Origin: a virus | Direction: 5' to 3' (one strand) | Virus record (IMG/VR): IMGVR_UViG_3300046656_000525 | Span: 1 to 41,514 of that record | DNA: 41,514 nucleotides | Shown: piece by piece, positions 8,958 through 27,771 of the stretch | How positions within the stretch are numbered: position 1 is the first letter of the stretch | How the letters are laid out: every line of letters starts with the position of its first letter | The notes under the pieces: model-generated | Told to the model about the DNA's origin: nothing | Database searches by the model: none | What the model saw: only the letters and a program-made list of their open reading frames with translations | Program-made: the position numbers and the translations under genes

Positions 8958-9197
8958 ATGAACTTCGATTTTGTTAAATCAATCAAAAACGGCGAAACGC
9001 ACAAAGAAGCCCCTGTGTGTGGGGATGGAATCGCTGAATATAATACCGATGATGGCGTTATCGAATATTGGGCGGTTGAGGCTGGTCAGGCCGCTGATTT
9101 CGTCCAATGGCTTAAAGATGGTGAAAACATGGATGAATCACGCCATCAGATTTCTGGGTCTTACCCTTACTTCTATCGTGAGAATGTGACCGCGTAA
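8958..9197 (+). CDS. First rightward early protein, unknown function
   Basis: 79 residues from an ATG with AAGGA upstream. The frame is open back to 8883, but that would start on the promoter -35, so the later ATG is chosen. The protein starts MNFDFVKSIKNGE and is acidic and soluble. As the first gene behind the strong early promoter, it may act at once after infection. No family recognised. Confidence 0.7.
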   Translation: MNFDFVKSIKNGETHKEAPVCGDGIAEYNTDDGVIEYWAVEAGQAADFVQWLKDGENMDESRHQISGSYPYFYRENVTA

Positions 9198-9209
9198 TTT
9201 ACCCCAAGG

Positions 9210-9230
9210 CCCCTCTTTAATTGAGGGGCT
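9210..9230 (+). terminator. Hairpin, possible weak terminator
   Basis: GCCCCTC (9210-9216), a 7-base loop, then GAGGGGC (9224-9230): a perfect 7-bp G+C-rich stem just after the first early gene. It lacks a T-run (TGATATT follows), so it may only attenuate transcription or protect the mRNA end. Confidence 0.45.
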
Positions 9231-9255
9231 GATATTAAACTTAAAAGGAATGAAA

Positions 9256-9411
9256 ATGCTAAAACAATTATGGTTTTGGTTTAAAGTCCGCTTGCTGGTG
9301 AGACGATTGCGAAAACTGCATAAATCGCAACTTGATAAAATGTGCAAAATAAAAGACATGGCATCATATTATTGGATCGAAAGTGAGGCTAATAATGGAA
9401 TCGAAAGCTGA
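9256..9411 (+). CDS. Small basic protein of unknown function
   Basis: 51 residues, AAAAGGAA ribosome site, rich in Lys, Arg, Leu and Trp (LWFWFKVRLLVRRLRKLHK), forming an amphipathic basic helix. Its 3' end overlaps the ERF gene start, indicating coupled expression. It may bind membrane or nucleic acid; no evidence decides. Confidence 0.55.
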   Translation: MLKQLWFWFKVRLLVRRLRKLHKSQLDKMCKIKDMASYYWIESEANNGIES

Positions 9412-10237
9412 GTTAATCCCAATAGAAAATCCCAAGGCTGCCATGATTCGAGATTTAGCCAAGTTTCAGGGCCGAGTTTCGATTGCTGAAAAAGACGAAA
9501 TCAATCCGCATTTTAAAAAAACATACGCGACCCTTGCAAGCTATGTCTCTGCGATACACCCACATTTAGAAGAGTGTAATCTGGCTTATACCCAGACGAT
9601 AGAAGGGACCAAACTTGTTACGACTCTTTGGCATACGAGCGGTGAGTCAATCAAATCTGAGTGCGAGTTAATCGGTGCGCGCCAAGACCCCCAAGGAATT
9701 GGATCGGCTCTTAGTTACTATCGTCGATATCAATTGGCTGGAATCTTAGGCATGGCAGCGGCTGATGATGATGGAAACGAAGCGCAACCGAAGCCAGTGA
9801 AAACTAAAGCCGAAAAGCAACAGGGCTACAAAGATTACAAAAATGGCCTGCCAAGCGCTGAGGTATTGGCTAAAGCTAAGGCGGATAATGACGCGCCACC
9901 TTGGAACGAAGCGGAAGGCGAAAAAGCTGACCTATTTGACAAAGTCACTCAGACCGAAAATCAAATCGCTGCAATAGTCGGCTTTAACTCTGCTGATTTT
10001 AAGAAAACCTGCGCTCTGCTCTATAACCGACATAACGCTAATTGCGCTGATGGCGAGAAAACAGGCAATTGGAAAATGGCATTGGCTTCAGCTGAGGCGC
10101 TATTAAAGGTCGCTAAGACTTATATACCGCCCACCCCCGCTAAATCGCAAGCACCTGAAGACACTGATTTCAAATCAGCTAATCCTATTCCAGCTCAGCC
10201 AGAGCTATTAAAACAAGGAGATTTAACACATGGGTAA
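9395..10237 (+). CDS. erf: ERF-family single-strand annealing protein
   Basis: 280 residues from the ATG at 9395, behind GTGAGG. The N-terminal 130 residues carry the ERF signatures: NPHFKKTYATL (about 37-47), TTLWHTSGESIKS, and PQGIGSALSYYRRYQLAG (about 99-116), ending in an acidic ADDDGN. ERF proteins bind and anneal single-stranded DNA for phage recombination and genome circularisation. The C-terminal half is Ala/Lys-rich and variable, as in relatives. It sits directly behind the early promoter together with the Gp157-like gene, a common recombination pair. No partner exonuclease was recognised in the genome. Confidence 0.9.
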   Translation: MESKAELIPIENPKAAMIRDLAKFQGRVSIAEKDEINPHFKKTYATLASYVSAIHPHLEECNLAYTQTIEGTKLVTTLWHTSGESIKSECELIGARQDPQGIGSALSYYRRYQLAGILGMAAADDDGNEAQPKPVKTKAEKQQGYKDYKNGLPSAEVLAKAKADNDAPPWNEAEGEKADLFDKVTQTENQIAAIVGFNSADFKKTCALLYNRHNANCADGEKTGNWKMALASAEALLKVAKTYIPPTPAKSQAPEDTDFKSANPIPAQPELLKQGDLTHG

Positions 10238-10391
10238 TCGAATACGGAAGTGGATAATTATAATTTGTGCTGGGGTCGCCTTTATAGCACACGGCTTAAC
10301 GGCCGAATCGGAAATATGGCGCTATGTTTTTGGTTTTAGCATTGGCCTTTTGGTCAGTATAGCATTAGGAATTGAACAGGAGAAAGAATAA
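10230..10391 (+). CDS. Small two-helix membrane protein
   Basis: 53 residues, with AAGGAG upstream of its ATG, which lies within the end of the ERF gene. It has two hydrophobic segments (about 7-24 and 31-47) and charged ends. It is coupled to the next gene by a TAATG overlap. Small membrane proteins in early operons often affect host physiology or superinfection; no specific role can be assigned. Confidence 0.65.
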   Translation: MGNRIRKWIIIICAGVAFIAHGLTAESEIWRYVFGFSIGLLVSIALGIEQEKE

Positions 10392-10843
10392 TGGAAGATT
10401 TTAAAGTATTTCCAGAGGACATCCAATGGAATCCCGAGACAGGAGAAATCATCGAAACCCCACAATCGGACTATCCCGAGCAGCTGGGCCGAGCCTACAT
10501 GAATCACTCTTTTTTCGGCGACTTATTGGACGCTGAACTAGAACGGCTCAAAGCTCGCAAGGCAGCCAATGAAGTACGGAAAGACAAGCTGAAATTAGAA
10601 CTGGATCGAGTAATACCAGAAGGGGCCAATCTGAAACGCCCTGAGCTTGGATTTACGATTTACCGATCTAAGTCTGAATCAGTGCGAGTTGTGGATGAAA
10701 GCGCTATCCCTGCTGATTATTGGCGGGTCAAGACAGAGCGAGCTTTGGATAAAAACATGGTTAAGCAACAACTCAAAGACGGGCTGGACGTGAATGGCTG
10801 TGAGCTTGATGTTAAGGACAACTTGATTATCAAGCGGACTTGA
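10391..10843 (+). CDS. Gp157-like early protein
   Basis: 150 residues. The C-terminal half matches the siphovirus Gp157 family pattern: a basic helix, then GFTIYRSKSESVRVVDES, AIPADYWRVK, LDKNMVKQQLKDG and a final GCELDVKDNLIIK. The N-terminal part carries a helical, Lys/Arg-rich segment as in the family. Members sit beside ERF or RecT genes, and one has been linked to phage resistance in Streptococcus; the biochemical role is unsettled. Position directly after ERF fits. Confidence 0.75.
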   Translation: MEDFKVFPEDIQWNPETGEIIETPQSDYPEQLGRAYMNHSFFGDLLDAELERLKARKAANEVRKDKLKLELDRVIPEGANLKRPELGFTIYRSKSESVRVVDESAIPADYWRVKTERALDKNMVKQQLKDGLDVNGCELDVKDNLIIKRT

Positions 10844-10866
10844 TTATCCCCTTATTTTTGAAGTGA

Positions 10867-10904
10867 AGCGCCTATGAATCTTTGGTTTGTGGGCGCTATT
10901 TTTA
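10867..10904 (+). terminator. Possible terminator hairpin
   Basis: AGCGCC (10867-10872) and GGCGCT (10892-10897) form a 6-bp stem with a 19-base loop, followed by ATTTTTA. It overlaps the leader of the next gene, whose AGGAGG starts at 10904. Weak; partial attenuation is possible. Confidence 0.4.
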
Positions 10905-10914
10905 GGAGGTATTT

Positions 10915-11121
10915 ATGATTTTTTTCTGCCAAAACCTAAAATGCAACTTCTACGCCATGTGGGAATGCGAGCGCTGTGGTTGTAAAACCTGCAATAAGCA
11001 CTTCGCGTCTAAAATGCCCTTGCTTTGCGAGTGGTGTGCGCGTGGCGAACGAGAAGACTGGGAAGATAAGCGAGCTAATGGACGAGAGAAGGTCGAAGAG
11101 ATGGAGGCCGAAAATGGCTAA
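10915..11121 (+). CDS. Cys-rich zinc-binding mini-protein 1
   Basis: 68 residues behind a perfect AGGAGG. Cysteine pairs CQNLKC, CERCGCKTC, then His in NKHF, and CEWC give a cross-brace zinc-finger pattern similar to B-box or AN1-like fingers. The tail is acidic and charged. First of six consecutive Cys-rich genes, overlapping the next by 8 bases. Zinc binding is inferred from Cys/His spacing; target unknown. Confidence 0.75.
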   Translation: MIFFCQNLKCNFYAMWECERCGCKTCNKHFASKMPLLCEWCARGEREDWEDKRANGREKVEEMEAENG

Positions 11122-11323
11122 TGGAATAATTGAATGTACATATTGTAAAAATGATGCGGATTACAAATGCGATGGATGCGGTTATCATATTTGCAGATTT
11201 CATTCAAATTGCAATTCAACTCGATGGGTTCTACACAATCTTTGCCGCGGGTGCTTTAATGAATGGGAGAATATGAAAAAAGCGGAAGTTAAACGGCTTG
11301 CGACAACAGAGAGGGGGGAATAA
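11114..11323 (+). CDS. Cys-rich zinc-binding mini-protein 2
   Basis: 69 residues from the ATG at 11114; the frame is open to 10976, but this ATG has GGAGG upstream and follows the overlap pattern of the array. Motifs: CTYC, CDGCGYHICRFHSNC, then CRGC. Same arrangement as protein 1, with His residues in the third pair, so the two are likely paralogues. The C-terminal tail is Lys/Glu-rich. Confidence 0.7.
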   Translation: MANGIIECTYCKNDADYKCDGCGYHICRFHSNCNSTRWVLHNLCRGCFNEWENMKKAEVKRLATTERGE

Positions 11324-11324
11324 A

Positions 11325-11516
11325 ATGGCTAATTGTAAATGCAAAGATAAATATTGTGGCAACTGTCATGGCTGCGGTATTAAGGTCCGTTGGTGTATGG
11401 ATGATTGTGTGTTTGTGGATATGAGCGGATTTGGATTGGACGCGATGGCTTATTGGTGCAAAAAATGCTGGTCTGAAATTGAAAAAGAGAGTGAGGGAAA
11501 AAATGAAAAAGAATAA
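11325..11516 (+). CDS. Cys-rich zinc-binding mini-protein 3
   Basis: 63 residues starting MANCKCKDKYC behind GAGGGGGG. About eleven cysteines: CKC, CGNCHGCG, WCMDDC and WCKKCW. The start MAN and its DNA context resemble protein 2, suggesting duplication. Its end overlaps the next gene by 14 bases. Enough cysteines for two zinc sites. Confidence 0.7.
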   Translation: MANCKCKDKYCGNCHGCGIKVRWCMDDCVFVDMSGFGLDAMAYWCKKCWSEIEKESEGKNEKE

Positions 11517-11706
11517 TTGGATTTGCGGGGATTGCAGGGAGAGTATCCCAAAAGGCAAAGAAGTTTATTTAGAGAGCCTTATAATATGCCAAGGATGTAA
11601 TCAAGAATATCATCAAGAGTATTGGGACTCGAAGGAATCTTTAGGCGCATCTTCCAAGATAGAACAAGAACAAATGACGGAAGAAATAGAAAGTGAGGAC
11701 GAATAG
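11503..11706 (+). CDS. Cys-rich zinc-binding mini-protein 4
   Basis: 67 residues from the ATG at 11503 behind GTGAGGG. CGDC near the start and CQGCNQEYHQEYW later form a CxxC-CxxC-His pattern, like RING or PHD-type half sites. The acidic tail ends in SEDE, the same ending as protein 5, and the 20 bases across this stop and the next start are repeated exactly at the next junction. Confidence 0.7.
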   Translation: MKKNNWICGDCRESIPKGKEVYLESLIICQGCNQEYHQEYWDSKESLGASSKIEQEQMTEEIESEDE

Positions 11707-11918
11707 ATGAAGCTCTTATGCTACGGTTGTGGGGCGCAAGCCGTTTATCAATGCGATTCTTGTCTTAACTTCATTTGCGAAGCGGATACAATCATATTGG
11801 AAGGCGCTTTTAGTTGCTGTCATCTATGCACAGAGGTTATTTCTGATCATAGAAAAAGTTTGGGAAAGGAAACAAAATCAGCGCCCCTAACCCAAAAAAG
11901 TGAGGACGAATAGATGAA
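11692..11918 (+). repeat. Exact 20-base direct repeats at gene junctions
   Basis: The same 20 bases lie at 11692-11711 and 11899-11918. Each covers the last codons of one gene (SEDE), its stop and the ATG of the next. A second repeat, AAAATCAGCGCCCC, lies at 11874-11887 and 12087-12100. Together they indicate tandem duplication of a gene-sized unit of about 207-213 bases. Confidence 0.8.
11707..11913 (+). CDS. Cys-rich zinc-binding mini-protein 5
   Basis: 68 residues. CYGCGAQAVYQCDSC, then FICEAD, and CCHLC give the same cross-brace spacing as proteins 1 and 2. The tail ends KSEDE, as in protein 4 (ESEDE). The ribosome site is the GTGAGGACG inside the preceding gene. Likely a zinc-binding adaptor; partner unknown. 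Confidence 0.7.
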   Translation: MKLLCYGCGAQAVYQCDSCLNFICEADTIILEGAFSCCHLCTEVISDHRKSLGKETKSAPLTQKSEDE

Positions 11919-12084
11919 AAGCTGTTGGTGCATTTTCGCATTCCATAAATGTCAACACTGTAAAAAATGGATTTGTGAAAAACATGGGGTCTATCACAAA
12001 CATTTATATGGTCGTAATAAAAGCGGCTGGATTTGTTTTAATTGTGAAGAAAGACATTTTGGTTATGATGGGCCAGATTGTTAA
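11914..12084 (+). CDS. Cys-rich zinc-binding mini-protein 6
   Basis: 56 residues starting MKSCWCIFAFHKCQHCKKWICEK. CxC, CxxC, C and CFNC cysteines with several His give a B-box-like pattern closely similar to proteins 1, 2 and 5. It ends the array; a promoter and the replication gene follow. It has the same ribosome site repeat as protein 5. Confidence 0.7.
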   Translation: MKSCWCIFAFHKCQHCKKWICEKHGVYHKHLYGRNKSGWICFNCEERHFGYDGPDC

Positions 12085-12147
12085 ATAAAATCAGCGCCCC
12101 CCGAATCTTTGGCTAAGGAAAACCAAGAGGATAATGATTTAGGGGGC

Positions 12148-12176
12148 TTGACTTTTTGATTAAGCTGGATTAGCTT
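12148..12176 (+). promoter_or_regulatory. Promoter for the replication gene
   Basis: TTGACT (12148-12153), 17-base spacer, TAGCTT (12171-12176), 18 bases before the ATG at 12195. The first bases, GGCTTGACTTTT, are repeated at the antirepressor promoter (18565 on). Just upstream GCCCCC (12096-12101) can pair with GGGGGC (12142-12147), a possible end for the Cys-rich operon. Confidence 0.6.
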
Positions 12177-12194
12177 TACATCAAGGATTTCATT

Positions 12195-13643
12195 ATGAAC
12201 AATACTAACACAATTCTACCTTCGCGTCAAGTGGAGGGCAATTTTATTATGCAACCCGTCTCCGTTATAGATCAAAAGGTCTATCAACACCTTCCAAAGG
12301 GCTGCTCACAACTTTACGAAACACTCAAGACCTTTGATTACGCAAACCGTAAGGGTTATGTCTGGCCTACAATAGAAACATTGGCAGCACGTCAATTTGT
12401 ACACCCGAACACGGTAAGGACGCGGTTAAAAGCCCTTGAAAAAGCTGGCCTTATCCAGCGCGAACGCGTGGCGGGTCGGCAAGACAATTGGTTTTTTTGT
12501 AACCCCCAACCTTCATCGTCTCCTATAACAACGCACGTTAGACTTGTTAAGGCTAACGCAGCGGACGAGGCTAGCCCCGAGGTAAATCACTCGATTACTA
12601 GACAGAGTATGCCTTTTCCTCGGGCTAGTTTGGAGATTAAGCCAGATAAAAAAGCATACCCTAACAATTCTCGATCACTTCCGCCTGCAGAAATTGTAGG
12701 GGGGGGTAACAAACTGCCTGTTAGAGGGGGCTACAATACGGGTGTTCACGAAGAAGAAGAAGCTAAGAATAAAAATATAAATAATCAAATCAATGTAGCT
12801 AATCATTCACACCTAGGAGGTCTAGGGGGAGAACAACAACTAATCGACCTTGGTGATTTTAAGCCATTGCAAATCGAATCGCCTGTTCAAACTGTTGCAA
12901 AAACTGCAACGGTTGACGTTGCACCTGTGGGAACTGATTTGAGTGATTATAAATCTTTTCTTAGCTCAAAGTTCGACCGTCAAAAGGTCACGGATAAGCT
13001 ACTCGATTTGATCGATGATGACTTCAAAGCCAATGCTAAAAACGCAATCACGACACTGCACAATCAGAAAAACCATTTAGCTTTATTCCCAGTCTCGCTT
13101 TGCCGATATTTACGGGACAATCTTGGGAAAATCAATAACAAGTCAGCCTATATCTATGGGGCGCTGACTAACCCAGAGAAATACGATATGATTGTTACCG
13201 CAGCGAGTCAACTTGATACCGCTTGGCGGATTGAGTATGCTGATACAAAATATCTTAAAAGACAACAAGATCATTGGCGATCGATATCGCTTGATAACAC
13301 GCCATATTCAGCCGAAGAACTGGAAGAGAAGACCCGATTCCATGCGAAATTACGGGCTGACATTGCCGCCAAAGCTGGGAAACTGGACATGTTTGACAAA
13401 GACGGTAAACTTGACATGCGTACCCCCCGCCCGAGAGGCTTAACTGAACGTGAATGGTGTCAACAAAATGGCTGGGAATATGATGAGTGGTATAAGACGA
13501 ACCATGACGGCAAAGATTGGCGAGAAGAGCAGAAAAAAATTGATGATTTGGTTCGTAAAGCTGGCGGCCAAATTAATATTCGAGATGATCGAGAAGATAG
13601 TTTATTTGCAAAATTGGGGGCTGGCTATGATATGTCAAATTGA
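12195..13643 (+). CDS. Winged-helix replication initiator-like protein
   Basis: 482 residues. The N-terminal region (about 25-95) is a winged helix-turn-helix: GYVWPTIETLAARQFVHPNTV, then TRLKALEKAGLIQRER, as in phage replication proteins of the O/DnaD-like class. A low-complexity linker (about 110-250, Pro, Gly, Asn and Glu rich) separates it from a helical C-terminal region with several Trp and basic residues. Such proteins bind the origin and recruit the host helicase or loader. It has its own promoter. No polymerase, primase or helicase was recognised, which supports the host-dependent initiator idea. The origin may lie inside this gene (see the inverted repeat at 12890). Confidence 0.7.
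   Translation: MNNTNTILPSRQVEGNFIMQPVSVIDQKVYQHLPKGCSQLYETLKTFDYANRKGYVWPTIETLAARQFVHPNTVRTRLKALEKAGLIQRERVAGRQDNWFFCNPQPSSSPITTHVRLVKANAADEASPEVNHSITRQSMPFPRASLEIKPDKKAYPNNSRSLPPAEIVGGGNKLPVRGGYNTGVHEEEEAKNKNINNQINVANHSHLGGLGGEQQLIDLGDFKPLQIESPVQTVAKTATVDVAPVGTDLSDYKSFLSSKFDRQKVTDKLLDLIDDDFKANAKNAITTLHNQKNHLALFPVSLCRYLRDNLGKINNKSAYIYGALTNPEKYDMIVTAASQLDTAWRIEYADTKYLKRQQDHWRSISLDNTPYSAEELEEKTRFHAKLRADIAAKAGKLDMFDKDGKLDMRTPRPRGLTEREWCQQNGWEYDEWYKTNHDGKDWREEQKKIDDLVRKAGGQINIRDDREDSLFAKLGAGYDMSN
12890..12914 (+). repeat. Inverted repeat inside the replication gene, candidate origin site
   Basis: AACTGTTGCA (12890-12899), loop AAAAC, then TGCAACGGTT (12905-12914): ten paired positions with one T-G wobble. 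It is followed by GACGTTGCACC, a partial third copy of the core. It lies in the linker-coding part of the initiator gene, where lambda-like phages keep their origin. Confidence 0.45.
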
Positions 13644-13845
13644 GGCGAAGTTAAATGATTTCTGGTTTTGGATAAAATACAGATTGTTTAACGCGCATTT
13701 GTCTAAATTGATTGACGAAAAACCCAGAGGTATGAGTGTCAGCCAGTGGATTAAGCTATCTGGATGGACGGAAGCGGACTTAACTCAAAACGAAAGAGAG
13801 TTTTGGGCTGAGCTTGATAAACTAATTAAACAGGAGAAAAACTAA
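13627..13845 (+). CDS. Small protein of unknown function
   Basis: 72 residues. The ATG at 13627 follows TTGGGGGC and lies inside the end of the replication gene. The C-terminal half (GMSVSQWIKLSGWTEADLTQNE) looks like a small helical, possibly HTH-like unit. It is coupled by TAATG to the next gene. No clear homologue. Confidence 0.6.
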   Translation: MICQIEAKLNDFWFWIKYRLFNAHLSKLIDEKPRGMSVSQWIKLSGWTEADLTQNEREFWAELDKLIKQEKN

Positions 13846-14174
13846 TGTCAAATCCAAACAATAAGCACTTTTGTGATATCTGTCCAAATGGCTTACAATG
13901 CGGATTCTGGGGAACTTGTAATACCCCATTACGAGAAGTCGATCAAATGCACTCGCCACTAGTGTTGCTGCGGGATGTATTGCGTACTGACTATATAGAT
14001 TTTTCTGATTTCGAGCATAGGCTAAACCCGAAGGCATCCGAAATGTATAGTGAGGGAGTTAAAGACGGATTGCAAATAGCTATTGAACGCATTAACGCAA
14101 TGCTTGACATAGACACGCTTGGCGAGTTTATATGCAAGACAGAACAACTTGATTTTGAGAAGGAGAAAAATTAA
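13845..14174 (+). CDS. Small protein with N-terminal Cys cluster
   Basis: 109 residues. The first 30 contain CDIC, LQCGFWGTC, a likely zinc site; the rest is helical and acidic. The ribosome site CAGGAGA precedes the ATG. It overlaps both neighbours by TAATG. Function unknown. Confidence 0.65.
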   Translation: MSNPNNKHFCDICPNGLQCGFWGTCNTPLREVDQMHSPLVLLRDVLRTDYIDFSDFEHRLNPKASEMYSEGVKDGLQIAIERINAMLDIDTLGEFICKTEQLDFEKEKN

Positions 14175-14383
14175 TGGGTAAATGGCTTAAATTGACGGGG
14201 GCTTCGGATGGAAGTACAATTATATTGCTTTTCGGCAAGCGCGGTGCTTTTCGCGTTGAGATAAGCGAAGGCATAACATCTTGCGTGATACGCGAAAATA
14301 GTCATAATACCACTGGTATATTGGTCAAAGAAACTCCAGAACAAATCTACGATATGCTAATGGAGGAAGAGAAAAATGATTAA
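14174..14383 (+). CDS. Small beta-rich protein (FlbD-like appearance)
   Basis: 69 residues. The strand pattern (KWLKLTGASDGSTIILLFGK, then VEISEG and IRENSHNTTGILVKETPEQIYDML) recalls the short FlbD-like proteins common in phages. The ribosome site AGGAGA is inside the preceding gene. The similarity is impressionistic; function unknown. Confidence 0.6.
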   Translation: MGKWLKLTGASDGSTIILLFGKRGAFRVEISEGITSCVIRENSHNTTGILVKETPEQIYDMLMEEEKND

Positions 14384-15089
14384 CATCTCAATGCGAGACC
14401 CAAAGAACCTTAAAGAGTTCAGCCCGTTTGCACCATTTTGGGTCGATTTCCCAATGTATAAATGGGATCACAAATCAGTCCTAATCTGCATTCACGGCTA
14501 CAATACGGAAGACAAAGAAGCCCAAGAAATGGGTGCCAATCTGGACCGATTCCGCAATGGACGTCCCTTCAACCTTACTATGTTAAGCTGGCCTTCAAAT
14601 GGCAAGGCACTCAACTACACGGCAGACCGATGGGACGCCGTCGAAGCTGGGAAGCGATTGGCAGCTTTGGTTACCAGCCTTAATTTTCAAGGAAAGCGGG
14701 TGTACTTACTGGCTCACTCAATGGGTAACTATGTAGTGGCCAATGCACTCAGCCTCTTAAAATATGGGGACGTCTATCGCTGGTATTCCTTGGCGGGTGA
14801 TATAAGCGCTTCTGAATGTGAGCCTAACGGGAAGTGGGGGGTCCAATGTGGGAAGACCGTATTTGCTCACTTCTATTACACCCGATCTGATGGCGTTTTG
14901 AAGTGGATTAGCACCCCACGGCATTTGTGGAATCGGCGAATAGGTGAAGTCGGCTTGCCTGATAATCATCCGTCAAACTGGTATAATGAAGACGCCCGAT
15001 CCCGTTGGGGGGTGAAGTCGCATAGTGGGTACTTTGAAGTACCTGCGATTTTTGAAGAGATTTTTGATCAAATTGTGAGGGAAAATTAG
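14376..15089 (+). CDS. Alpha/beta hydrolase (DUF900-like)
   Basis: 237 residues. SVLICIHGYNTE (about 34-45) is the oxyanion-side HG motif. VYLLAHSMGNYV holds the nucleophile elbow with Ser115. Asp172 (TRSDGVL) and His216 (KSHSGYF) are in the right order to complete a triad. LSWPSNGKALNYTADRWDAVEAG between them is typical of the DUF900 branch of serine esterases. No signal peptide, so it acts in the cytoplasm or at lysis. Substrate is unknown: a lipid, a peptide or a small ester. Unusual cargo for a phage early region. Confidence 0.8.
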   Translation: MINISMRDPKNLKEFSPFAPFWVDFPMYKWDHKSVLICIHGYNTEDKEAQEMGANLDRFRNGRPFNLTMLSWPSNGKALNYTADRWDAVEAGKRLAALVTSLNFQGKRVYLLAHSMGNYVVANALSLLKYGDVYRWYSLAGDISASECEPNGKWGVQCGKTVFAHFYYTRSDGVLKWISTPRHLWNRRIGEVGLPDNHPSNWYNEDARSRWGVKSHSGYFEVPAIFEEIFDQIVREN

Positions 15090-15418
15090 TGCATTACCCA
15101 ATAGAACTAAAGAACGGCTGAAAATCCGAGATCGCCGACAACAAAGTCTATGCCTCGGTTGAAGGCGATACGGTCAAGCTATTCGGTACTATCACTGGCG
15201 GCGAAATCGGTATGTACAAAATTATTGGCATTATGGACCTTGACATTGCACCTGATCGCCAATTAAAGTTTGATATTAAAGGCGAACTATCGACTGGCTT
15301 TGAGAGTACTATCGCAATCGGCATAGATATTTACGGCGCAATCACAATTATGAGCCATAATAAAAACATCGATACTATCTTCCTAAGCGGGATACAATAC
15401 AAAAAGGGGCTGACATGA
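15089..15418 (+). CDS. Tail-fibre-type domain protein interrupted by in-frame UGA
   Basis: A GTG at 15089 overlaps the TAG of the hydrolase gene and has a well-placed AGGG. The frame reads HYPIELKNG, then TGA at 15119-15121, then runs on open to 15418 (KSEIADNKVYASVEGDTV and so on). With Trp at the TGA, the protein is 109 residues and matches a beta domain frequent in phage fibres: a conserved NGW near the start, a V-GDTVKLFGTI strand, GG turn and a final FLSGIQY. Without readthrough, only an internal ATG at 15212 with a poor ribosome site would remain. Either a nonsense mutation of TGG or UGA readthrough by tRNA-Trp. Location far from the tail genes is also odd. Confidence 0.65.
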
Positions 15419-15606
15419 AAGCTGATAAAAATGTGCTATTGGTCCTCAAAGGCCCCCGAACCGAAACGGAAATCTTGGCTGAGCTTAAGAAGTACTACGA
15501 CAAAGAGTTTAGCTTGGCGGACGTTGTTTTAGAGTACCAAGGTCCAGTCGAATATGAAGGGTATATTAAAGCCAATGAAACTATCGTATACGAGGCGGGA
15601 GAATAA
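15415..15606 (+). CDS. Small acidic protein of unknown function
   Basis: 63 residues, ATGA-coupled to the preceding gene, acidic with a helix-strand pattern (TETEILAELKKYYDKEFSL). No motif recognised. TAATG overlap with the next gene. Confidence 0.65.
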   Translation: MKADKNVLLVLKGPRTETEILAELKKYYDKEFSLADVVLEYQGPVEYEGYIKANETIVYEAGE

Positions 15607-15956
15607 TGGCAACTTTATTGAAAGAAGTCCTAAGAAAAGCTCGCAAGCTGCATACTTGTTGTGAATGTGCCTGCAAAATAGAGAGAGGCCAAAGATATCA
15701 TTTTACAACGTATGCGCAGGACGGGGAAGTGTATAGCTCTAAGCTCTGCTCTGAATGTGAAGAAATGCAAAATTGGCTCAACGCAAATCACCAAAAATAC
15801 GATATCGATTTAAGTGAGGTCTATATTGGCCAAATGTGGGAAGTGATTTCAGAGATTGCTTGGGATAAAAAAGGCTTAGAAGATTTATTATTCAGCGCAC
15901 AATTAAGCGATGCCGCTGAAATAAAAGTGAGGGCTAAGGTCTATGTCCGAGACTAA
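15606..15956 (+). CDS. Zinc-ribbon-like phage protein
   Basis: 116 residues. KARKLHTCCECACKIERGQRY and then KLCSECEEM give two CxxC-type pairs, a four-Cys zinc site found in a widespread small phage protein family of unknown role. GAGAATA ribosome context. The remaining 70 residues are helical. Confidence 0.75.
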   Translation: MATLLKEVLRKARKLHTCCECACKIERGQRYHFTTYAQDGEVYSSKLCSECEEMQNWLNANHQKYDIDLSEVYIGQMWEVISEIAWDKKGLEDLLFSAQLSDAAEIKVRAKVYVRD

Positions 15957-16197
15957 CACTCAAAACATACTCGATAAACTAATAGCCGCTGGATATCATC
16001 CTAGTTTCTTTGAGGCGCTGCTTGGGATGGAAGCGGGAGAAGGCTGGGAAATTGACAGGACGTTATATAAACTTTATTATGATCCCAAAACAGGGCCTGA
16101 GCTATGCTTGTGGGATAAAGAGAAAAATAAATGGGTTGGCTGCGCTATTGATATTGAATGCTTAAAAGGAATCTGGACAAGACATGGCCATAGGTAA
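15943..16197 (+). CDS. Small protein of unknown function
   Basis: 84 residues, overlapping both neighbours by 14 bases, rich in Trp and charged residues (GWEIDRTLYKLYYDPKTG). No motif recognised; ends GIWTRHGHR. Confidence 0.65.
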   Translation: MSETNTQNILDKLIAAGYHPSFFEALLGMEAGEGWEIDRTLYKLYYDPKTGPELCLWDKEKNKWVGCAIDIECLKGIWTRHGHR

Positions 16198-16585
16198 TCG
16201 CCCACCCGCACCCAAGACTCCCAAGATAAAAAACAGCGAGCTAATCCAATGGTACAAGTACAACTTCCCCTACTGCGAGCTAAGCCGCTTGGAAGGGAAG
16301 TACATTACAACGGGCGTAGAGACTCATCACATAGAACCCGGGCTTGGGCGCACAGATGAACTGTGGAATCTAATCAGAATAGTTCACTGGAAACATATGC
16401 TTTGCACGACTCACATATATGGCGCTCAAGCCGTGCAGAACAACTATATATGCTTTGGTCTTAAGTTTATCAAAGGTGAAATAAAACAAGCTAAACTTGA
16501 AGAGCTTGGCAAGTGGGACGAAGTGCGGTTTGTAGTCAAGGAATTAAGGCCTATTTATAATCAAGTCAATGGGATTAAGTCATGA
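16184..16585 (+). CDS. HNH-like endonuclease
   Basis: 133 residues. TGVETHHIEPGLGRTDELWN with Asn62, followed by HWKHMLC, forms an HNH pattern: His48/His49, Asn62 and His68/His71. CELS at about 31 may be the remnant of a zinc pair that stabilises larger HNH folds. HNH proteins nick or cut DNA in packaging, recombination or homing. This one sits in the accessory block, well away from terminase, so a packaging role is less likely. Confidence 0.65.
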   Translation: MAIGNRPPAPKTPKIKNSELIQWYKYNFPYCELSRLEGKYITTGVETHHIEPGLGRTDELWNLIRIVHWKHMLCTTHIYGAQAVQNNYICFGLKFIKGEIKQAKLEELGKWDEVRFVVKELRPIYNQVNGIKS

Positions 16586-16806
16586 AAAAACCAACAAAAT
16601 ATCATTTACGATGGCGATTCGCAACAGAACTAAAGAGCTTTCGCCATCGGCATTGGCTGACACAACGCTATTTAGGGCATATTATAGGCTACGATGCAGG
16701 ACAGGTCGCAATGTTTGAACGGCGAAAACGATACCCAAGCGCTTTAGAAATACAAATCGCTTATAATAAAATGCGAGAATACGCGGCGGGGAAGGCTAGT
16801 GACTAA
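16582..16806 (+). CDS. XRE-type helix-turn-helix regulator
   Basis: 74 residues. LKSFRHRHWLTQRYLGHIIG, then GQVAMFERRKRYPSALEIQIAY matches the Cro/CI-type HTH with the recognition helix around GYDAGQVAMFERR. Very basic N-terminus. Coupled by ATGA to the HNH-like gene. Probably represses or modulates nearby genes. Confidence 0.75.
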   Translation: MKKPTKYHLRWRFATELKSFRHRHWLTQRYLGHIIGYDAGQVAMFERRKRYPSALEIQIAYNKMREYAAGKASD

Positions 16807-17014
16807 ATCAGAAGCTCTAAATCTACTCAAGCAAGGCGTTGGCATAGACCTTGGCGATGATTGTTTCTGGACAGAGACATCAGCACTGCTCGGTATGCGT
16901 ATCTGCACGCATGGGCGTTTGAAATATAAGACCTTTTCAACCCGCGCCTTTATGACATTTGAACAATTCTTAGAACGCTATCCTGAAGAGGGGTACACTA
17001 TCCATGACGTATGA
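16799..17014 (+). CDS. Repeated small-domain protein A
   Basis: 71 residues from a GTG (TAGTG overlap; GGGGAAGG upstream). Starts MTKSEALNLLKQGVGI, the helix-then-beta pattern shared by the next three genes. Such 60-70 residue single-domain proteins (helix, then a small beta barrel) are common in phages. DUF2829/Tad2, an inhibitor of Thoeris defence, has a similar opening. Family membership is not established here. Confidence 0.65.
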   Translation: MTKSEALNLLKQGVGIDLGDDCFWTETSALLGMRICTHGRLKYKTFSTRAFMTFEQFLERYPEEGYTIHDV

Positions 17015-17225
17015 ACAGGCACTACCCAAACTTATCCGTGGCGAACAATGGTTTTGCGGCGGATGGCGATTTGCTATCCTAACCGACGGAAAGTTGTATT
17101 ACATGGATATGTTTTCAGCACCCGTCAAAGTATGGCCTACACAATTGGCGGAAGTAAAGCAATCTCAGCTTTGGAACCCAGTCAGGGAACTAAGCTATAA
17201 ACCAAAAACAGAGGTAACACAATGA
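17004..17225 (+). CDS. Repeated small-domain protein B
   Basis: 73 residues. Starts MTYEQALPKLIRGEQWFCGGWR, then ILTDGKLYYMD and a closing WNPVREL. The same layout as protein A: N-terminal helix with A-xx-L-xx-G, a Trp after the turn, and a strand with a DG turn. Overlaps A by 11 bases. Confidence 0.65.
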   Translation: MTYEQALPKLIRGEQWFCGGWRFAILTDGKLYYMDMFSAPVKVWPTQLAEVKQSQLWNPVRELSYKPKTEVTQ

Positions 17226-17626
17226 CAAGACGTGAAATGTGGCAAGCGTTATTGGATGGGAAGCAGGTTATTCATCCAAGGTTAAGTTTTAATTATATTT
17301 TCATGGATCGTGAAGGAAACCCTATCGTAATGACTGATTTTATGCCATCGGGTACTTTGCGAACTGATGAAATTGATGATAAAACCTATGATACTGGCTG
17401 GGAAATCTATTCCCCAATCTGCACGCGTGAACAAGCCATCGAAGGACTTAAACTCGGGGAGAAGTGGAAGGCGCTGGATTTTGTAGAGCACGGATATAAA
17501 TATACAGAACTGACGAATAATTTCGATCTAAACCATATAGGCATCATAACACCATTGGTGACACCAATCCCAATCCTATCCTGCAATCGCTGGCAAAGAG
17601 TCTATGACAAAGGAGAAACCCAATGA
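17222..17626 (+). CDS. Repeated small-domain protein C (two domains)
   Basis: 134 residues, two copies of the domain in tandem. Copy one (1-65) starts MTRREMWQALLDGKQV and closes GWEIYSP. Copy two starts CTREQAIEGLKLGEKWKALD and closes with NRWQRVYD. The internal duplication parallels the duplication of whole genes around it. ATGA-coupled to gene B. Confidence 0.65.
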   Translation: MTRREMWQALLDGKQVIHPRLSFNYIFMDREGNPIVMTDFMPSGTLRTDEIDDKTYDTGWEIYSPICTREQAIEGLKLGEKWKALDFVEHGYKYTELTNNFDLNHIGIITPLVTPIPILSCNRWQRVYDKGETQ

Positions 17627-18036
17627 CCCGCAGAGAAGCTATACCCTATATGCTCGACAAGGGGGCGTATAATAAGAATCATGAAATAAAATATGGGTTT
17701 CGGTCTAAAGTCTTTATTAATGATTTTGGCCGAGTTGTGCAAATTTGGCAGGACGGCGCAACAACAAGCGTAGGGGTGGTTTACAGCAGCTCGCTTTATA
17801 ACGACGGCTGGGAACCTTGGGAAGACCCAATCGAATACGTCGATGGGTTTACTGCGCTAAAGGCGATGGCTGAAAATGACGGAGAGATTTGGATATGGGA
17901 TCTTGATATGGTGCGATATCGAATTACAGCGAGATTGCAATTTTTAGATGATATTGGTTGGCGAGATTCACTGATTAGCGCTGAAATGCTCTTTGATAAA
18001 CTCTGGCATAAATACATACCCAAGGAGAATAAGTAG
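17623..18036 (+). CDS. Repeated small-domain protein D (two domains)
   Basis: 137 residues. Starts MTRREAIPYMLDKG, almost the same opening as protein C, closes the first copy with GWEPWEDP, then a second, diverged copy begins FTALKAMAENDGEIWIWDLD. Ribosome site AAAGGAGA. ATGA-coupled to C. Function unknown. Confidence 0.65.
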   Translation: MTRREAIPYMLDKGAYNKNHEIKYGFRSKVFINDFGRVVQIWQDGATTSVGVVYSSSLYNDGWEPWEDPIEYVDGFTALKAMAENDGEIWIWDLDMVRYRITARLQFLDDIGWRDSLISAEMLFDKLWHKYIPKENK

Positions 18037-18234
18037 ATGGGAATCTTAGAACGCTTAGCGAATTTAAAAGAATACCTAAAAGGAATATTGCCACCTGATC
18101 GCCTATCGACGGCCGAGGTTTATAGGCAAATCGATTTAATCGCTATCGAGTACAAGGCAGCGCACAAAATGCAATCCCGCCGCGAAATTCTTGAGAAAAT
18201 GATAAATGGCGAACTTGACGATACCCAAGGATAA
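18037..18234 (+). CDS. Small helical protein of unknown function
   Basis: 65 residues behind AAGGAGA, directly adjoining the previous stop. Predicted all-helical with basic and acidic faces. The last codons (ELDDTQG) fall in a 15-base repeat that recurs after the next gene. Confidence 0.6.
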   Translation: MGILERLANLKEYLKGILPPDRLSTAEVYRQIDLIAIEYKAAHKMQSRREILEKMINGELDDTQG

Positions 18235-18467
18235 ATCATGAAAAAGCAACATACATCCCGCGGATTTGCATATCGCAAGTTTGACGATATATATAAGTAC
18301 AAATGTATTATACAAGAATCCTCATTGGCAGATAAGCCCGCAATCTGGCTTGGGACCACTGAGGAACGGATGCATATTGATAGGCCATTGGCGCGAAAAT
18401 TAGTGAAATATTTGAATAAGTTTATAGAAACTGGGAATATTTGACGGCTACCCTTGACGATACCCAA
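18214..18467 (+). repeat. 15-base direct repeat CTTGACGATACCCAA
   Basis: Identical copies at 18214-18228 (end of one gene) and 18453-18467 (just after the next gene). They bracket the 68-residue gene at 18238 and could be a trace of its insertion or duplication. TTGACG looks like a -35, but no -10 follows either copy. Confidence 0.6.
18238..18444 (+). CDS. Small basic protein of unknown function
   Basis: 68 residues, basic, starting MKKQHTSRGFAYRKFDD. A strand-rich N-terminus is followed by a C-terminal helix (RPLARKLVKYLNKFI). It is bracketed by 15-base repeats. AAGGATA precedes the start. Confidence 0.55.
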   Translation: MKKQHTSRGFAYRKFDDIYKYKCIIQESSLADKPAIWLGTTEERMHIDRPLARKLVKYLNKFIETGNI

Positions 18468-18490
18468 TAGATTTACAAAAAGGACTAATA

Positions 18491-18571
18491 ATGGAATTGC
18501 TTGAAATTATTGATAATATAGCCAAACTCATTGGTGGCCTTTGCATTTTATATTTAATCTCAAAGGCTTGA
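18491..18571 (+). CDS. Possible 26-residue hydrophobic peptide
   Basis: AAAAAGGA sits eight bases before an ATG; the frame encodes MELLEIIDNIAKLIGGLCIL and a short tail, a single amphipathic or membrane helix. Its stop overlaps the -35 of the antirepressor promoter. Very short, so it may be chance. Confidence 0.35.
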   Translation: MELLEIIDNIAKLIGGLCILYLISKA

Positions 18572-18596
18572 CTTTTAACTAAGTCTTTACTATACT
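18568..18596 (+). promoter_or_regulatory. Antirepressor promoter
   Basis: TTGACT (18568-18573), 17-base spacer, TATACT (18591-18596). This is among the strongest promoters in the genome. The first bases match the promoter of the replication gene (GGCTTGACTTTT), so the two may share a regulator. A leader of about 85-90 bases precedes the ATG. Confidence 0.75.
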
Positions 18597-18634
18597 ATAT
18601 ACCGAGGGGCCGTCGTCGTGGATGGCTTCTTAGC

Positions 18635-18678
18635 TAGCGAGGCTATTTAGTAGTATGCCTCGCTATCCTAACTACTAA
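18635..18678 (+). promoter_or_regulatory. Two mutually exclusive stems in the antirepressor leader
   Basis: Stem A: TAGCGAGGC (18635-18643) with GCCTCGCTA (18657-18665), nine perfect pairs. Stem B: TTAGTAGT (18647-18654) with ACTACTAA (18671-18678), eight perfect pairs, ending just before the AGGA ribosome site. The 5' arm of B lies in the loop of A and the 3' arm of A in the loop of B. They form a pseudoknot or an either/or switch. Alternatively, they are two operator palindromes for a DNA-binding protein. Confidence 0.6.
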
Positions 18679-18690
18679 TAGGACTAACAA

Positions 18691-19440
18691 ATGAACACTT
18701 CTCAAATTATCCCCCTTCACAAAGAACAACCCGATTTTCCCGTAAATCATAAAGAGCTTGCCGAATTCTTGGGCCTCGATTCAGAGACCGTTACTTACTA
18801 TATAGAAGGCAAGCGGGGCAATTTCTGTTTTTCTAATACTACAGACTTTTACCGACAAGTGTCGCTAAAAACGGATAGAGGCCGACCTGCGGTTATCTAT
18901 TGGCTAACAATCAATTCAGCAAAAGAAATCTGCATGTTAGCAGAAGGCGATAAAGGCAAACAAGCTCGGCTGTATTTTATTGAATGCGAACGAGTCGCAA
19001 AAGCGCCCCAAGGCCCGACCAATTTTTTGGAAGCCATGAAATTAATAGTGGCCAAAGAAGAGGAACGGCTTGCCTTAGAAGCGACCGTCAATGTGCAGGC
19101 AGAGCAGCTCGCAATCCAAGCCCCTAAGGTTGACGCTTGGGAAAAGCTAATGAATGCGGAAGGTGGCTCAAATCCGAGCACTGCTTCGAAGGCCTTTACT
19201 GAGTTTGGAATCGGCCCTAAATCTATCTACCCAGCTATGCACGAGTTTGGAATGGTCTTTAAAAAAGGCGATAAATGGTTTGCGATGCAATCAGCGATTG
19301 ACGCTGGATATCTGTTTGTGAGGGATAGTTTTTGGCATAACCCCAAGACTGGGAAGGATCAGCTAACCCAACAAATCTACATAACCGCCAAGGGTATAGG
19401 CTATCTTCATAAAAAACTCACAGAAAAGGAACTAAAATAA
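18691..19440 (+). CDS. ant: AntA-KilAC phage antirepressor
   Basis: 249 residues. Residues about 15-105 match the AntA/AntB family: FPVNHKELAEFLGL, then YWLTINSAKEICMLAEGDKG and KQARLYFIECER. After a helical linker (110-145, Ala/Glu rich), residues about 150-247 match the KilAC/ANT domain: LMNAEGGSNPSTASKAF, GPKSIYPAMHEFG and a final ITAKGIGYLHKKL. Antirepressors bind and inactivate phage repressors to trigger lytic growth. It has its own strong promoter and a structured leader, which suggests tight control. No CI-type repressor of usual size was recognised in the genome. Confidence 0.85.
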   Translation: MNTSQIIPLHKEQPDFPVNHKELAEFLGLDSETVTYYIEGKRGNFCFSNTTDFYRQVSLKTDRGRPAVIYWLTINSAKEICMLAEGDKGKQARLYFIECERVAKAPQGPTNFLEAMKLIVAKEEERLALEATVNVQAEQLAIQAPKVDAWEKLMNAEGGSNPSTASKAFTEFGIGPKSIYPAMHEFGMVFKKGDKWFAMQSAIDAGYLFVRDSFWHNPKTGKDQLTQQIYITAKGIGYLHKKLTEKELK

Positions 19441-19441
19441 C

Positions 19442-19723
19442 ATGTGGAAACGATTTGAGGATTGGTTTGATGACAGCCCGTACTTTCAATTGCTTGTACT
19501 GGCAGTCGGACTACTTTTTGTAACATTTGCAGCGCTTTTTGTTTTAGGTTTATTGATGAAACCAGCAGCGGATGCCGATAAAAAGAAAAAAGAAGACATG
19601 CAAACATGTATAGCGGCTTGCCCTGACTTACTCTGTGTGAAAAAATGTGAGGTTATTTGTGATTGCGAAAAAACGGACACAAGATATATCTACACACCAC
19701 CACCTGTGATTATAGGGAAATAA
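19442..19723 (+). CDS. Membrane protein with Cys-rich tail
   Basis: 93 residues. One transmembrane helix (about 17-40: LLVLAVGLLFVTFAALFVLG), then a Lys-rich stretch and a Cys-rich tail (CIAACPDLLCVKKCEVICDC) ending in a Pro-rich strand. Ribosome site AAAGGAA. The seven cysteines might bind metal or form disulphides if the tail lies outside. Role unknown; a spanin-like protein is possible, but this gene is far from the lysis cassette. Confidence 0.65.
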   Translation: MWKRFEDWFDDSPYFQLLVLAVGLLFVTFAALFVLGLLMKPAADADKKKKEDMQTCIAACPDLLCVKKCEVICDCEKTDTRYIYTPPPVIIGK

Positions 19724-19724
19724 C

Positions 19725-20123
19725 ATGGCCTATCTACACCCAAAAGCTAACCCGGAATGGATAGCCGAAATCAGAGCCCTACAAAAAGAGATCGGCTTTA
19801 GTTTCAAAGACTTAGCCCGAGTGGCGAGTATGAAGGAAGGCAATTTTGCTAATAAAATCAGCGGCAAAAGTCCTATGACAGCAAGCGACAGAGAGCGTTT
19901 ATTAGATGCCGCTAACTGCCTTCGCTATCCACAAACTATGATAATTGAGAAACGCTTGGTAGAGGCTTATGTTGACCCAGAAAAAGCACTTAAAGCAGAG
20001 CGAGAAGAACGAATGTTTGACCGAGCGGTACGAAAGGCTAATAAGATTTTCCGAGCGCCTTGCGACGATACCTATATAAATATAGTGAAAGTTGAATACG
20101 TGACTTATCCGGGGAGGAATTAA
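19725..20123 (+). CDS. HTH-containing regulator
   Basis: 132 residues. Residues about 12-60 (EIRALQKEIGFSFKDLARVASMKEGNFANKIS) fit a Cro-like HTH in which the second helix is DLARVASM and the recognition helix EGNFANKISG. The C-terminal half is helical and basic and could mediate dimerisation. TATAGGG upstream of the ATG. Likely transcriptional control next to the antirepressor. Confidence 0.6.
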   Translation: MAYLHPKANPEWIAEIRALQKEIGFSFKDLARVASMKEGNFANKISGKSPMTASDRERLLDAANCLRYPQTMIIEKRLVEAYVDPEKALKAEREERMFDRAVRKANKIFRAPCDDTYINIVKVEYVTYPGRN

Positions 20124-20225
20124 ATGGTCTGTCTCGTGATAGGATTTATAGCTATAGCCGCCATATTGATCATTTATACATGGATTGCAGAGAGCGTGGC
20201 TAATGAAGATCGGGAGGACAAATGA
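20124..20225 (+). CDS. 33-residue membrane peptide
   Basis: Perfect GGGGAGGA ribosome site; MVCLVIGFIAIAAILIIYTW forms one transmembrane helix with a short acidic tail. ATGA coupling to the next gene. The strong site and coupling argue for a real gene in spite of its size. Confidence 0.6.
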   Translation: MVCLVIGFIAIAAILIIYTWIAESVANEDREDK

Positions 20226-20650
20226 ATAAAATATACCTACACGCCATGATCGAAAGTGGCGATACTTCCAAATGCATTTATTTCAATGAAAGCGCCTATT
20301 TGAGAGCCCTATCCCAATTCGCTGGTAAACGCGTCCGCATCACAATCGAACCTGAATCGAACCCTCGCACTTTATCCCAAAACGCATACCTTTGGGGGGT
20401 CGTATATAAGCTAATAGCCGAGCATACAGGGCATACAGTGGAAGAGATACACGAGTTTTGTAAATTGAACTTCAATGGGAAGGAGCTGCCAAATACCAGA
20501 CAGAATCATAGCAGGCGTTATAGTATGTGGATCGGCGCCTCCACAACCAAACTTGACACTAAAGGCTTTGCGGATTATATTGATAAAATAGCCGTATTTG
20601 CGGCTTCTGAACTTGGGATAGATATACCTAAACCCGGAGAGGTGCAATAA
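20222..20650 (+). CDS. NinB-like recombination protein
   Basis: 142 residues. The stretch RTLSQNAYLWGVVYKLIAEH, then TVEEIHEFCKLNF, and the closing FADYIDKIAVFAASELGIDIP match the NinB/YbcN family of lambdoid phages. Its members bind single-stranded DNA and act in recombination (Orf in lambda). Ribosome site CGGGAGG. It complements ERF in the early recombination functions. Confidence 0.75.
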   Translation: MNKIYLHAMIESGDTSKCIYFNESAYLRALSQFAGKRVRITIEPESNPRTLSQNAYLWGVVYKLIAEHTGHTVEEIHEFCKLNFNGKELPNTRQNHSRRYSMWIGASTTKLDTKGFADYIDKIAVFAASELGIDIPKPGEVQ

Positions 20651-21085
20651 ATGCCAACATTAGTAGAATATCTTGCTACATTCCCGGGGCGCATGTTTTT
20701 GCTGCTTTCGGAAGATCCAGTATATACTCTACATAATACGGTCAGTAACGATTACGTGACTATCGCTAAAATGGAAGCCTATACAATGGCTGATTGCGAA
20801 AAAATAATGACATTGATACGCGATAACGAAAATTGGGAAATCCTTGATGAAAAAATGACTTTTGAAGAAGCGACACATTATTTGGTTACTGCCGCCGCCT
20901 CTGAAATCAGTGCAGCGGTACAAACGGATTTGAATCCTGATATTTATATGCAGATCTATTCGACAGATATAATCCCGCAGCAAATCAAGTTTTTTCTCAA
21001 GGAAGATAATTCAATGGCTGATCTTATTTTCCTTACAGGCATGTTCCAAACACGATGCTGGGTGATATATACAATCCCAGAATAA
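20651..21085 (+). CDS. Unknown protein before the glycosyltransferases
   Basis: 144 residues with a GAGAGG site. Mostly helix and strand with no Cys or catalytic motif; it looks like two halves, the second beginning MTFEEATHYLV. No homology recognised. It is the last gene before the glycan cassette. Confidence 0.6.
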   Translation: MPTLVEYLATFPGRMFLLLSEDPVYTLHNTVSNDYVTIAKMEAYTMADCEKIMTLIRDNENWEILDEKMTFEEATHYLVTAAASEISAAVQTDLNPDIYMQIYSTDIIPQQIKFFLKEDNSMADLIFLTGMFQTRCWVIYTIPE

Positions 21086-21094: not shown

Positions 21095-22252
21095 ATGAAA
21101 ATATTGATAATCGGTTTCCATCCCTATCATTGGTCAGGCCTCTCAAAAGCGGGGGCTATGATATTGCGAGCCTTATGTGATTTAGGCCACGAATGCCAAT
21201 ATATGGTTATCCCCAAAGGCGGCGACCATTTAGGTGCTGGAAGATTGCCTCAATTCAACGGGACGCCGTGTTTTATGCAGGCCCAAACGAATTATACCCA
21301 GAAAGCACTTGCTGAAAAGTATGATTTGATGATCTCGATTGGCGATTTATGGTATTTCGATGCGTGTTATGAATTGACTAATGCCCAAGCAATCCCATGG
21401 GCGGCTTATTTTGGGATCGAAGGTCTTGCATTGCCGCCGATTTCTCGCGTCGGTAAAAATGAAGTTATCAAAAATCAAACAATTTTAGACTCGGTATCCA
21501 AGATCTGGGCCTATACTCGCGCAACTGTTGACGCATTACAGCGATCAAGTGGTATTAATGGTGTCGGGTCGATCGGGATTTTGCCTCATTATGGGGAACC
21601 TAAACCTTATTCAATTGTAGGCTTGAAAGACAAGTTGCGGATCCCTAAAGACAAAAAGATAGCGCTATATGTGGGTGGAAACTATTTACGCAAAGGGGTC
21701 GATTTATGGGTGCAAGCGCTTAAAAACTCAAGCAATGACTGGGTCGGTTATATGCACATGCCAGCTTTCGACGAATTAGGCATTGATTTGCGTAGCTTAG
21801 TACCACAACTCGGATTAGAAGGTCGATTGTATTGTTGGGATGATTTAAGCCCTATTCTAAATCAGAGGGAAATCCCTGATATGTTTGTTCAAGGGCTTTA
21901 TTATGAATGCGATTTGTTTTTCCACCCGCACCGCGGAGAAGGCTTTGGCTTAGCCATCCAAGACGCATTGATGAGTCCAATCCGTTGCGCAATTTCAGCC
22001 GCGGGATCAGGAAGCGAGCTTGGTATTAATAAAAAATATTTGGTCAAGGCAGAGCGCCCTTGCTATGTGAGGGCAGGCGGTATCCAGCATCAAATGCAAG
22101 AGATGGAAAATATTCAATCTTTTGATCAGTATTACAAAAATGCACCGAAAACTAATGATTGGCAACCTTATACTTATCAAGAGTTTAAGGACCAAGTCCA
22201 GTTTTTGTTATCAGATCCAATTGAACCGAAATTATGGAGGCAATTCCCATGA
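21095..22252 (+). CDS. GT4-type glycosyltransferase 1
   Basis: 385 residues, GT-B fold. The N-terminus KILIIGFHPYHWSGLSKAG is the Rossmann start with the Gly-rich acceptor loop. IALYVGGNYLRKGVDLW (about 188-204) is the second Rossmann start with the GN..RKG motif. HRGEGFGLAIQDAL (about 278-291) is the EX7E-type nucleotide-sugar site. It transfers a sugar from a nucleotide or lipid donor to an unknown acceptor. No signal or membrane anchor, so cytoplasmic. Overlaps the next gene by ATGA. Confidence 0.85.
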   Translation: MKILIIGFHPYHWSGLSKAGAMILRALCDLGHECQYMVIPKGGDHLGAGRLPQFNGTPCFMQAQTNYTQKALAEKYDLMISIGDLWYFDACYELTNAQAIPWAAYFGIEGLALPPISRVGKNEVIKNQTILDSVSKIWAYTRATVDALQRSSGINGVGSIGILPHYGEPKPYSIVGLKDKLRIPKDKKIALYVGGNYLRKGVDLWVQALKNSSNDWVGYMHMPAFDELGIDLRSLVPQLGLEGRLYCWDDLSPILNQREIPDMFVQGLYYECDLFFHPHRGEGFGLAIQDALMSPIRCAISAAGSGSELGINKKYLVKAERPCYVRAGGIQHQMQEMENIQSFDQYYKNAPKTNDWQPYTYQEFKDQVQFLLSDPIEPKLWRQFP

Positions 22253-23391
22253 CAATCTATTATTTAGGCCACTTCGCTGATTATTCAGGCTATGGCAAGG
22301 CCGCACGGGATAATGTTAAATTGCTGGATTCCCTTGGCTATAATGTGATTTGTGGAAATATCAGTCATGATAACGAACTTATCCACCGAGGGCAATACTG
22401 GGTAGATCGAATCGCAGCAGGGCGTGATTTGCCAGAAGAGATCGATATTTTTATTGTCCACAAATCGCCTTGGAATCAGGATAATATTATAGAGCGGATC
22501 GATCAAGCGCCAGCAGCCCAGAAAGCTAAGCAAAAAATCTATTATACGGTTTTTGAAACGAGTCGCTGGCCTGAGCAGTGGAAAGAGCCTTTAAGCTATT
22601 TTGATAAAATCCTAACACCTAGCACTTGGCAAAAAGAAGCCGCTTTGGCTTTACTTGGTGATGGGTGGAAAGATAAAATCTCAGTAGTGCCTCACATTAT
22701 AGAGCCTACCCTGCATGAGCCCCTCAAAAATGAAATATTCACATTTTATTCTGATTTTTCACGGATTAGCCCCCGAAAAGGGCTGGATATCCTGCTCAAG
22801 GCGTATTTCTGGGCATTCACAAACAAAGATAAGGTGAAACTAAAACTGAAATTGCCGTCCAGTGATGCTTCCCGTCGTGAATGGCTCAAGTTACATCAAG
22901 AGGCCTATGATTGCTTTCGCTGGAAGGCCTCTGAATTGCCCATTATTGAAATCAACGAATCGCTTCTAAGTGATGAACAAATGCTGAAAAATATCCTTGA
23001 ATGCGATTGCTATGTTTGTCCAGCCCGTGGCGAAGGCTTTGCGATATCATTAGCCACTGCGGCAGTGAATGGTAAACCTTGCTTGGCGCCTGCAATTGTG
23101 GAATCGGCTGATGATATCGATGATGTTTTTTCATGGCACGCTGATTATTTATCGCCGAATTGTAGATTCCATGCGGAACAAATGTCTGTGGTTTCTGATG
23201 AGTTTTGGCGGGTAAAAATGATAATCAATACCGATGATATGTATTGGTTAGAAGGTGATTTAATTAGATTAAAACAAGCGATGAGCCATGCGGTTAACCA
23301 TAAAACCGATTTTATACCAGATTCCACCTGTATTGACTATCTAAGCGCTGAAAATGTGGGTAAATTTTTCACAGAGGCTTTTAACGCATGA
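22249..23391 (+). CDS. GT4-type glycosyltransferase 2
   Basis: 380 residues. The ATG at 22249 is chosen because GGAGG lies at proper distance and the ATGA overlap matches the neighbours; an ATG five codons earlier overlaps the ribosome site. YYLGHFADYSGYGKAARDN forms the first Rossmann loop, SRISPRKGLDILLKAY (about 170-185) the middle motif, and ARGEGFAISLATAAV (about 258 on) the donor-binding site. Diverged from glycosyltransferase 1, so the two probably add different sugars in series. Confidence 0.85.
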   Translation: MTIYYLGHFADYSGYGKAARDNVKLLDSLGYNVICGNISHDNELIHRGQYWVDRIAAGRDLPEEIDIFIVHKSPWNQDNIIERIDQAPAAQKAKQKIYYTVFETSRWPEQWKEPLSYFDKILTPSTWQKEAALALLGDGWKDKISVVPHIIEPTLHEPLKNEIFTFYSDFSRISPRKGLDILLKAYFWAFTNKDKVKLKLKLPSSDASRREWLKLHQEAYDCFRWKASELPIIEINESLLSDEQMLKNILECDCYVCPARGEGFAISLATAAVNGKPCLAPAIVESADDIDDVFSWHADYLSPNCRFHAEQMSVVSDEFWRVKMIINTDDMYWLEGDLIRLKQAMSHAVNHKTDFIPDSTCIDYLSAENVGKFFTEAFNA

Positions 23392-27765: not shown

Positions 27766-27771
27766 ATATCC

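Follow-up and report, generated by a model that had tools for sequence, protein, structure and literature searches.

An in-frame TGA at the conserved tryptophan position of a receptor-binding-head-like phage gene is probably a recent nonsense substitution

The window analyzed here is the whole 41,514-base IMG/VR virus record IMGVR_UViG_3300046656_000525, an uncultivated viral contig that, judged from its TerL, portal, capsid and tape-measure genes, is a tailed-phage contig. The head and packaging genes and the tape measure are at 26.5-41.5 kb. The frame of interest is far from these genes, in the early/accessory region, and it is not inside a tail module; rather, it stands alone between a hydrolase gene and small genes (Table 1). 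The DUF900 alpha/beta hydrolase gene, which is also in the early region and directly 5' of this frame, had no relative in the phage collection; within its end (15025-15046), the stable hairpin GTGGGTACTTTGAAGTACCTGC, with a T-rich run behind it, gave a terminator-like match in a scan (fold z -2.4). Elsewhere in the genome, two neighboring small Cys-rich genes (11707-12084) share one leader, GTGAGGACGAATAGATG, immediately upstream of and across their starts, and two glycosyltransferase-like genes of 385 aa each adjoin one another at 21095-23391. Most early and middle genes checked (9000-20700) have strong Shine-Dalgarno duplexes of about -5 to -10 kcal/mol, while those of the second glycosyltransferase, TerL, portal and capsid genes (22234-33000) are weak or almost absent (-2.5 to 0.1 kcal/mol), a contrast for which different modes of initiation or misassigned start sites are possible explanations.

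Table 1. Features of the interrupted frame and of the genes that flank it
Feature	Position	Strand	Evidence
Upstream gene, DUF900-type alpha/beta hydrolase	14376..15089	+	Pfam PF05990, E 1.5e-18; ORF list
GAGG, Shine-Dalgarno-like, 8 nt 5' of GTG	15077..15080	+	Sequence; duplex -6.1 kcal/mol
GTG start and first ten codons VHYPIELKNG, with near-invariant L-x-N-G	15089..15118	+	Profiles; model pLDDT 96
In-frame TGA at conserved Trp column	15119..15121	+	Sequence, profiles
98 open codons, remainder of receptor-binding-head-like domain	15122..15415	+	Coding score, profile, fold match
Hairpin starting 9 nt 3' of TGA	15131..15169	+	-15.1 kcal/mol, z -2.3; weak evidence
ATG (residue 42), sole in-frame start 3' of TGA	15212..15214	+	Sequence
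Terminal TGA of the frame, in ATGA overlap with next gene	15416..15418	+	Sequence
Next gene, 63 aa, own AAGGGG ribosome-binding site	15415..15606	+	Sequence

The frame at 15089-15418 on the plus strand reads VHYPIELKNG-stop-KSEIADNKVY and so on to KKGLT-stop, with the internal TGA as codon 11, an A as the next base, and 98 sense codons between the internal and the terminal TGA. Both ends of the frame are joined to its neighbors: the TAG of the hydrolase gene and the GTG overlap by one base in TAGTG (15087-15091), and the frame ends in the 4-base overlap ATGA (15415-15418). The duplex predicted for the GAGG preceding the GTG falls inside the range of the neighboring genes. Among the 289 open 30-codon stretches that follow stops on the plus strand, none scores as high for coding as that after this TGA (0.70; next 0.46). 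This stretch, which extends from the TGA to the ATG at 15212, has no start codon, and the next-best startless stretch scores 0.29. There is no second stop and no frameshift in the domain, so that only codon 11 is affected, and no other gene on the plus strand of the window is broken in this way. Thus, the observations made in an earlier note on this DNA, that a GTG frame with a good start reads NG-stop-KSEI and stays open for nearly 100 codons past the stop, are both borne out, the former with exact coordinates and reading.

The same note assigned the frame to a tail-fibre-type domain in which relatives have NGW where the stop is, and the profile searches agree. With W at the stop, residues 4-92 weakly match phrog_3285 (minor tail protein); with X, this match is gone. 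From phrog_3285, the family was reached via a tail domain of Bacillus phage PM1 that has the same LxNGW motif, and it includes further relatives from Streptococcus, Geobacillus, Exiguobacterium, Arthrobacter, Stenotrophomonas and other Bacillus phages. Against two family profiles, both built without the query sequence, the frame scores 28.0 bits with W and 22.2 bits with X (fetched relatives; 1000 shuffled sequences reached at most 6.6 bits), and 29.5 bits with W and 21.9 bits with X (80 IMG/VR loci). The part after the stop alone scores 18.9 bits against the profile of the relatives. When all 20 residues were scored at the stop position in the profile alignment, Trp was best, and the L-x-N-G just 5' of the TGA has a chance probability of about 3e-4 based on amino-acid frequencies. 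In relatives fetched by similarity, the column of the stop holds Trp in 16 of 18, corresponding to eight of ten distinct types, the others being F and A. By contrast, the TGG found at this column in all 78 loci located with a W-requiring pattern is not evidence of conservation. In most of the fetched relatives the domain is the end of a longer tail protein, and no frame found was shorter than about 148 aa.

The suggestion that relatives be compared for TGG or TGA at this position could be followed in part. Across 45 viral records, all 54 copies of the family are free of stops, which is a weak measure of Trp conservation because these records were selected by the NGW pattern, and a close relative was not found. 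Specifically, viral_contigs held no close relative of the gene, its two neighbors or TerL, genome_contigs held none of the gene, and a blastn search of 13.5-17.5 kb against phages with distant settings gave no match. Likewise, a search with the sequence around the stop as an exact pattern, leaving third codon bases free, gave no match, and the collection has no second copy of this stretch. The collections searched also had no near relative whose version of this gene carries TGG. A match to phage TC7 was rejected because it covers the C-terminal half only and scores 1.0 and -0.6 bits against the two profiles; weak Pfam and PDB matches (Pizza designs, TMEM132) were set aside as repeats or chance. 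In Listeria phage LP-031 (L011, 1540-1542), a TAG lies just 5' of the FNSGW motif in its copy of this domain and probably terminates the frame before it.

Structure modeling gave a similar picture. Modeled alone, the sequence reached a pLDDT of 37.5; with 35 aligned relatives, the read-through 109-residue sequence reached 94, with residues 1-10 at 96. The best PDB match of this model is 6r5w, Listeria phage PSA gp15 (TM 0.72-0.75, E 1e-4, 17-19% identity over the whole domain), followed by TP901-1 ORF49 and the p2 RBP, and a BFVD fold search with the model matched many phage tail proteins. We conclude from the operon joints, the coding score, the NGW-domain profiles and the fold model that the frame was plainly a gene with Trp at codon 11, and its predicted product is a free-standing receptor-binding-head-like domain of ~109 aa.

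A single UGA at a Trp position could mean that the host or the phage reassigns UGA to Trp. In the window, however, TGA is the normal stop of many genes, often in ATGA overlaps, 185 TGG codons are used across the 37 genes counted, only one frame is interrupted, and the window is without a tRNA gene. Reassignment is, therefore, close to refuted, in line with the view of the earlier note that the genome is not recoded. Similarly, selenocysteine at the TGA was rejected because the relatives have Trp and not Cys. Alternatively, translation might re-initiate at the ATG 3' of the TGA, in which case the real product would be a truncated protein of 68 aa; this ATG is in frame and is preceded by a weak duplex (-4.8 kcal/mol). 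Such a product would begin past the conserved L-x-NGW and lose the first strands of what is a compact fold, no startless stretch in the window scores better for coding than the 30 codons 5' of this ATG, and the ribosome site of the GTG is better and is accompanied by the operon overlap. On this evidence, re-initiation is very improbable.

Based on these data, we suggest that the TGA probably arose recently, by a nonsense substitution in a lone and dispensable RBP-head gene, and we favor a ranking in which this reading comes first and an error in the consensus next. In other words, the gene would be an accessory one that encodes a lone, ~109-aa RBP-head-like domain, and one recent nonsense change at its sole Trp codon would have broken it. 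The gene encodes an otherwise intact homologous domain with a stop at a position that is sense in relatives, as expected of a pseudogene formed by a nonsense change. Of the 34 single-step nonsense changes possible in the gene, four are transitions, and two of these are at codon 11. Because half of the transition-type nonsense changes hit this codon, a stop at W11 needs no special cause, and a stop on a conserved Trp does not in itself point to readthrough, since the same outcome would often be expected of an ordinary first nonsense mutation. The recent date of the change would explain why the rest of the frame is intact, and from its location outside the tail module the gene is probably dispensable. 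As no near relative with TGG was found, we infer the age and the direction of the change. Ribosomes starting at the GTG would make a 10-residue peptide and then terminate, and full-length protein, if any, would be limited to what background misreading of UGA by host tRNA-Trp allows. A study of in-frame stops in otherwise intact genes of bacteria reports them as widespread and mostly short-lived, and its authors assume that most lack functional recoding (PMC7918605). Against a plain mutation, there is no sign of decay except at one codon, and the gene may thus still function via leaky reading.

The second-ranked reading, which we regard as unlikely but deserving of attention, is that the TGA stems from an error in the consensus or the assembly, or is a minor allele, and that most phages in the sample have a sense codon here. 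The sole record available comes from IMG/VR, and the gene, of which the collection holds no second copy, is perfect except for a one-base break. On the other hand, no other coding-strand gene in the window is broken, so that the contig is not error-rich, and errors in short-read consensus sequences are rare.

The earlier note pointed to leaky readthrough as in Q-beta A1. In a functional form of this mechanism, UGA would be decoded as Trp infrequently, and a small quantity of the RBP-head domain would thereby be made on purpose. The stop is exactly at the Trp column, and the downstream frame is intact and strongly coding, as is equally expected after a recent nonsense mutation. A 3' A favors readthrough, and the note had stressed this base as a leaky context; here, it is unremarkable, because A also follows 49 of the 185 TGG codons and TGAA terminates three of the 37 genes counted. 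The hairpin downstream of the TGA is mediocre, being among the most stable 2% (49 nt) or 7% (80 nt) of coding windows, and this after several looks; an Rfam search gave no match, and a search for tRNA genes found none in the window. UGA is known to be leaky and is read as Trp in E. coli (PMC7918605) and in Q-beta, where its misreading gives rise to A1 (PMC6526423, PMC5967308), and some full-length protein could, therefore, arise from UGA misreading in any host. As a working mechanism, readthrough is not supported: none of the family copies carries TGA, with the reservation about NGW selection given above, the sequence context is ordinary, and a stop at codon 11 yields no useful or functional short product. 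We consider functional readthrough improbable. Even less probable is a more specific variant, in which the phage keeps the UGA so that free RBP head is made early and only at the host misreading rate, acting as a dose-controlled decoy or receptor blocker. Should the stop be genuine and the protein nevertheless be produced, this would be a rare use of a leaky UGA by a DNA phage inside a domain core and not between domains. Even as an ordinary nonsense change, the locus indicates that free-standing receptor-binding-head genes exist outside tail modules, and gene callers miss or truncate frames such as this one.

The design of this locus can be compared with several known systems. The modeled fold matches the heads of siphophage RBPs (PSA gp15, TP901-1 ORF49 and p2) over the full length of the domain. 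However, the gene described here is a lone early-region gene of ~109 aa with an internal stop, and its product would be without a stem or a baseplate anchor. The C-terminal NGW domains of minor tail proteins in phages of Gram-positive bacteria (PHROG 3285; Bacillus phage PM1, Streptococcus and Geobacillus phages) share the L-x-NGW, V-x-L-x-G, P and G columns with it (28-29.5 bits); by contrast, identity is 13-25%, and these domains end long tail proteins and have a sense codon at the Trp column. The short-lived in-frame stops of bacteria (PMC7918605) likewise consist of a single stop in an intact, coding-like gene, while the present case is a phage gene without close relatives. Finally, an in-frame UGA followed by a long open extension, with Trp expected on misreading, is a likeness to Q-beta A1 (PMC6526423). 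In Q-beta, however, the stop ends a complete and abundant coat protein, while here it comes after 10 residues.
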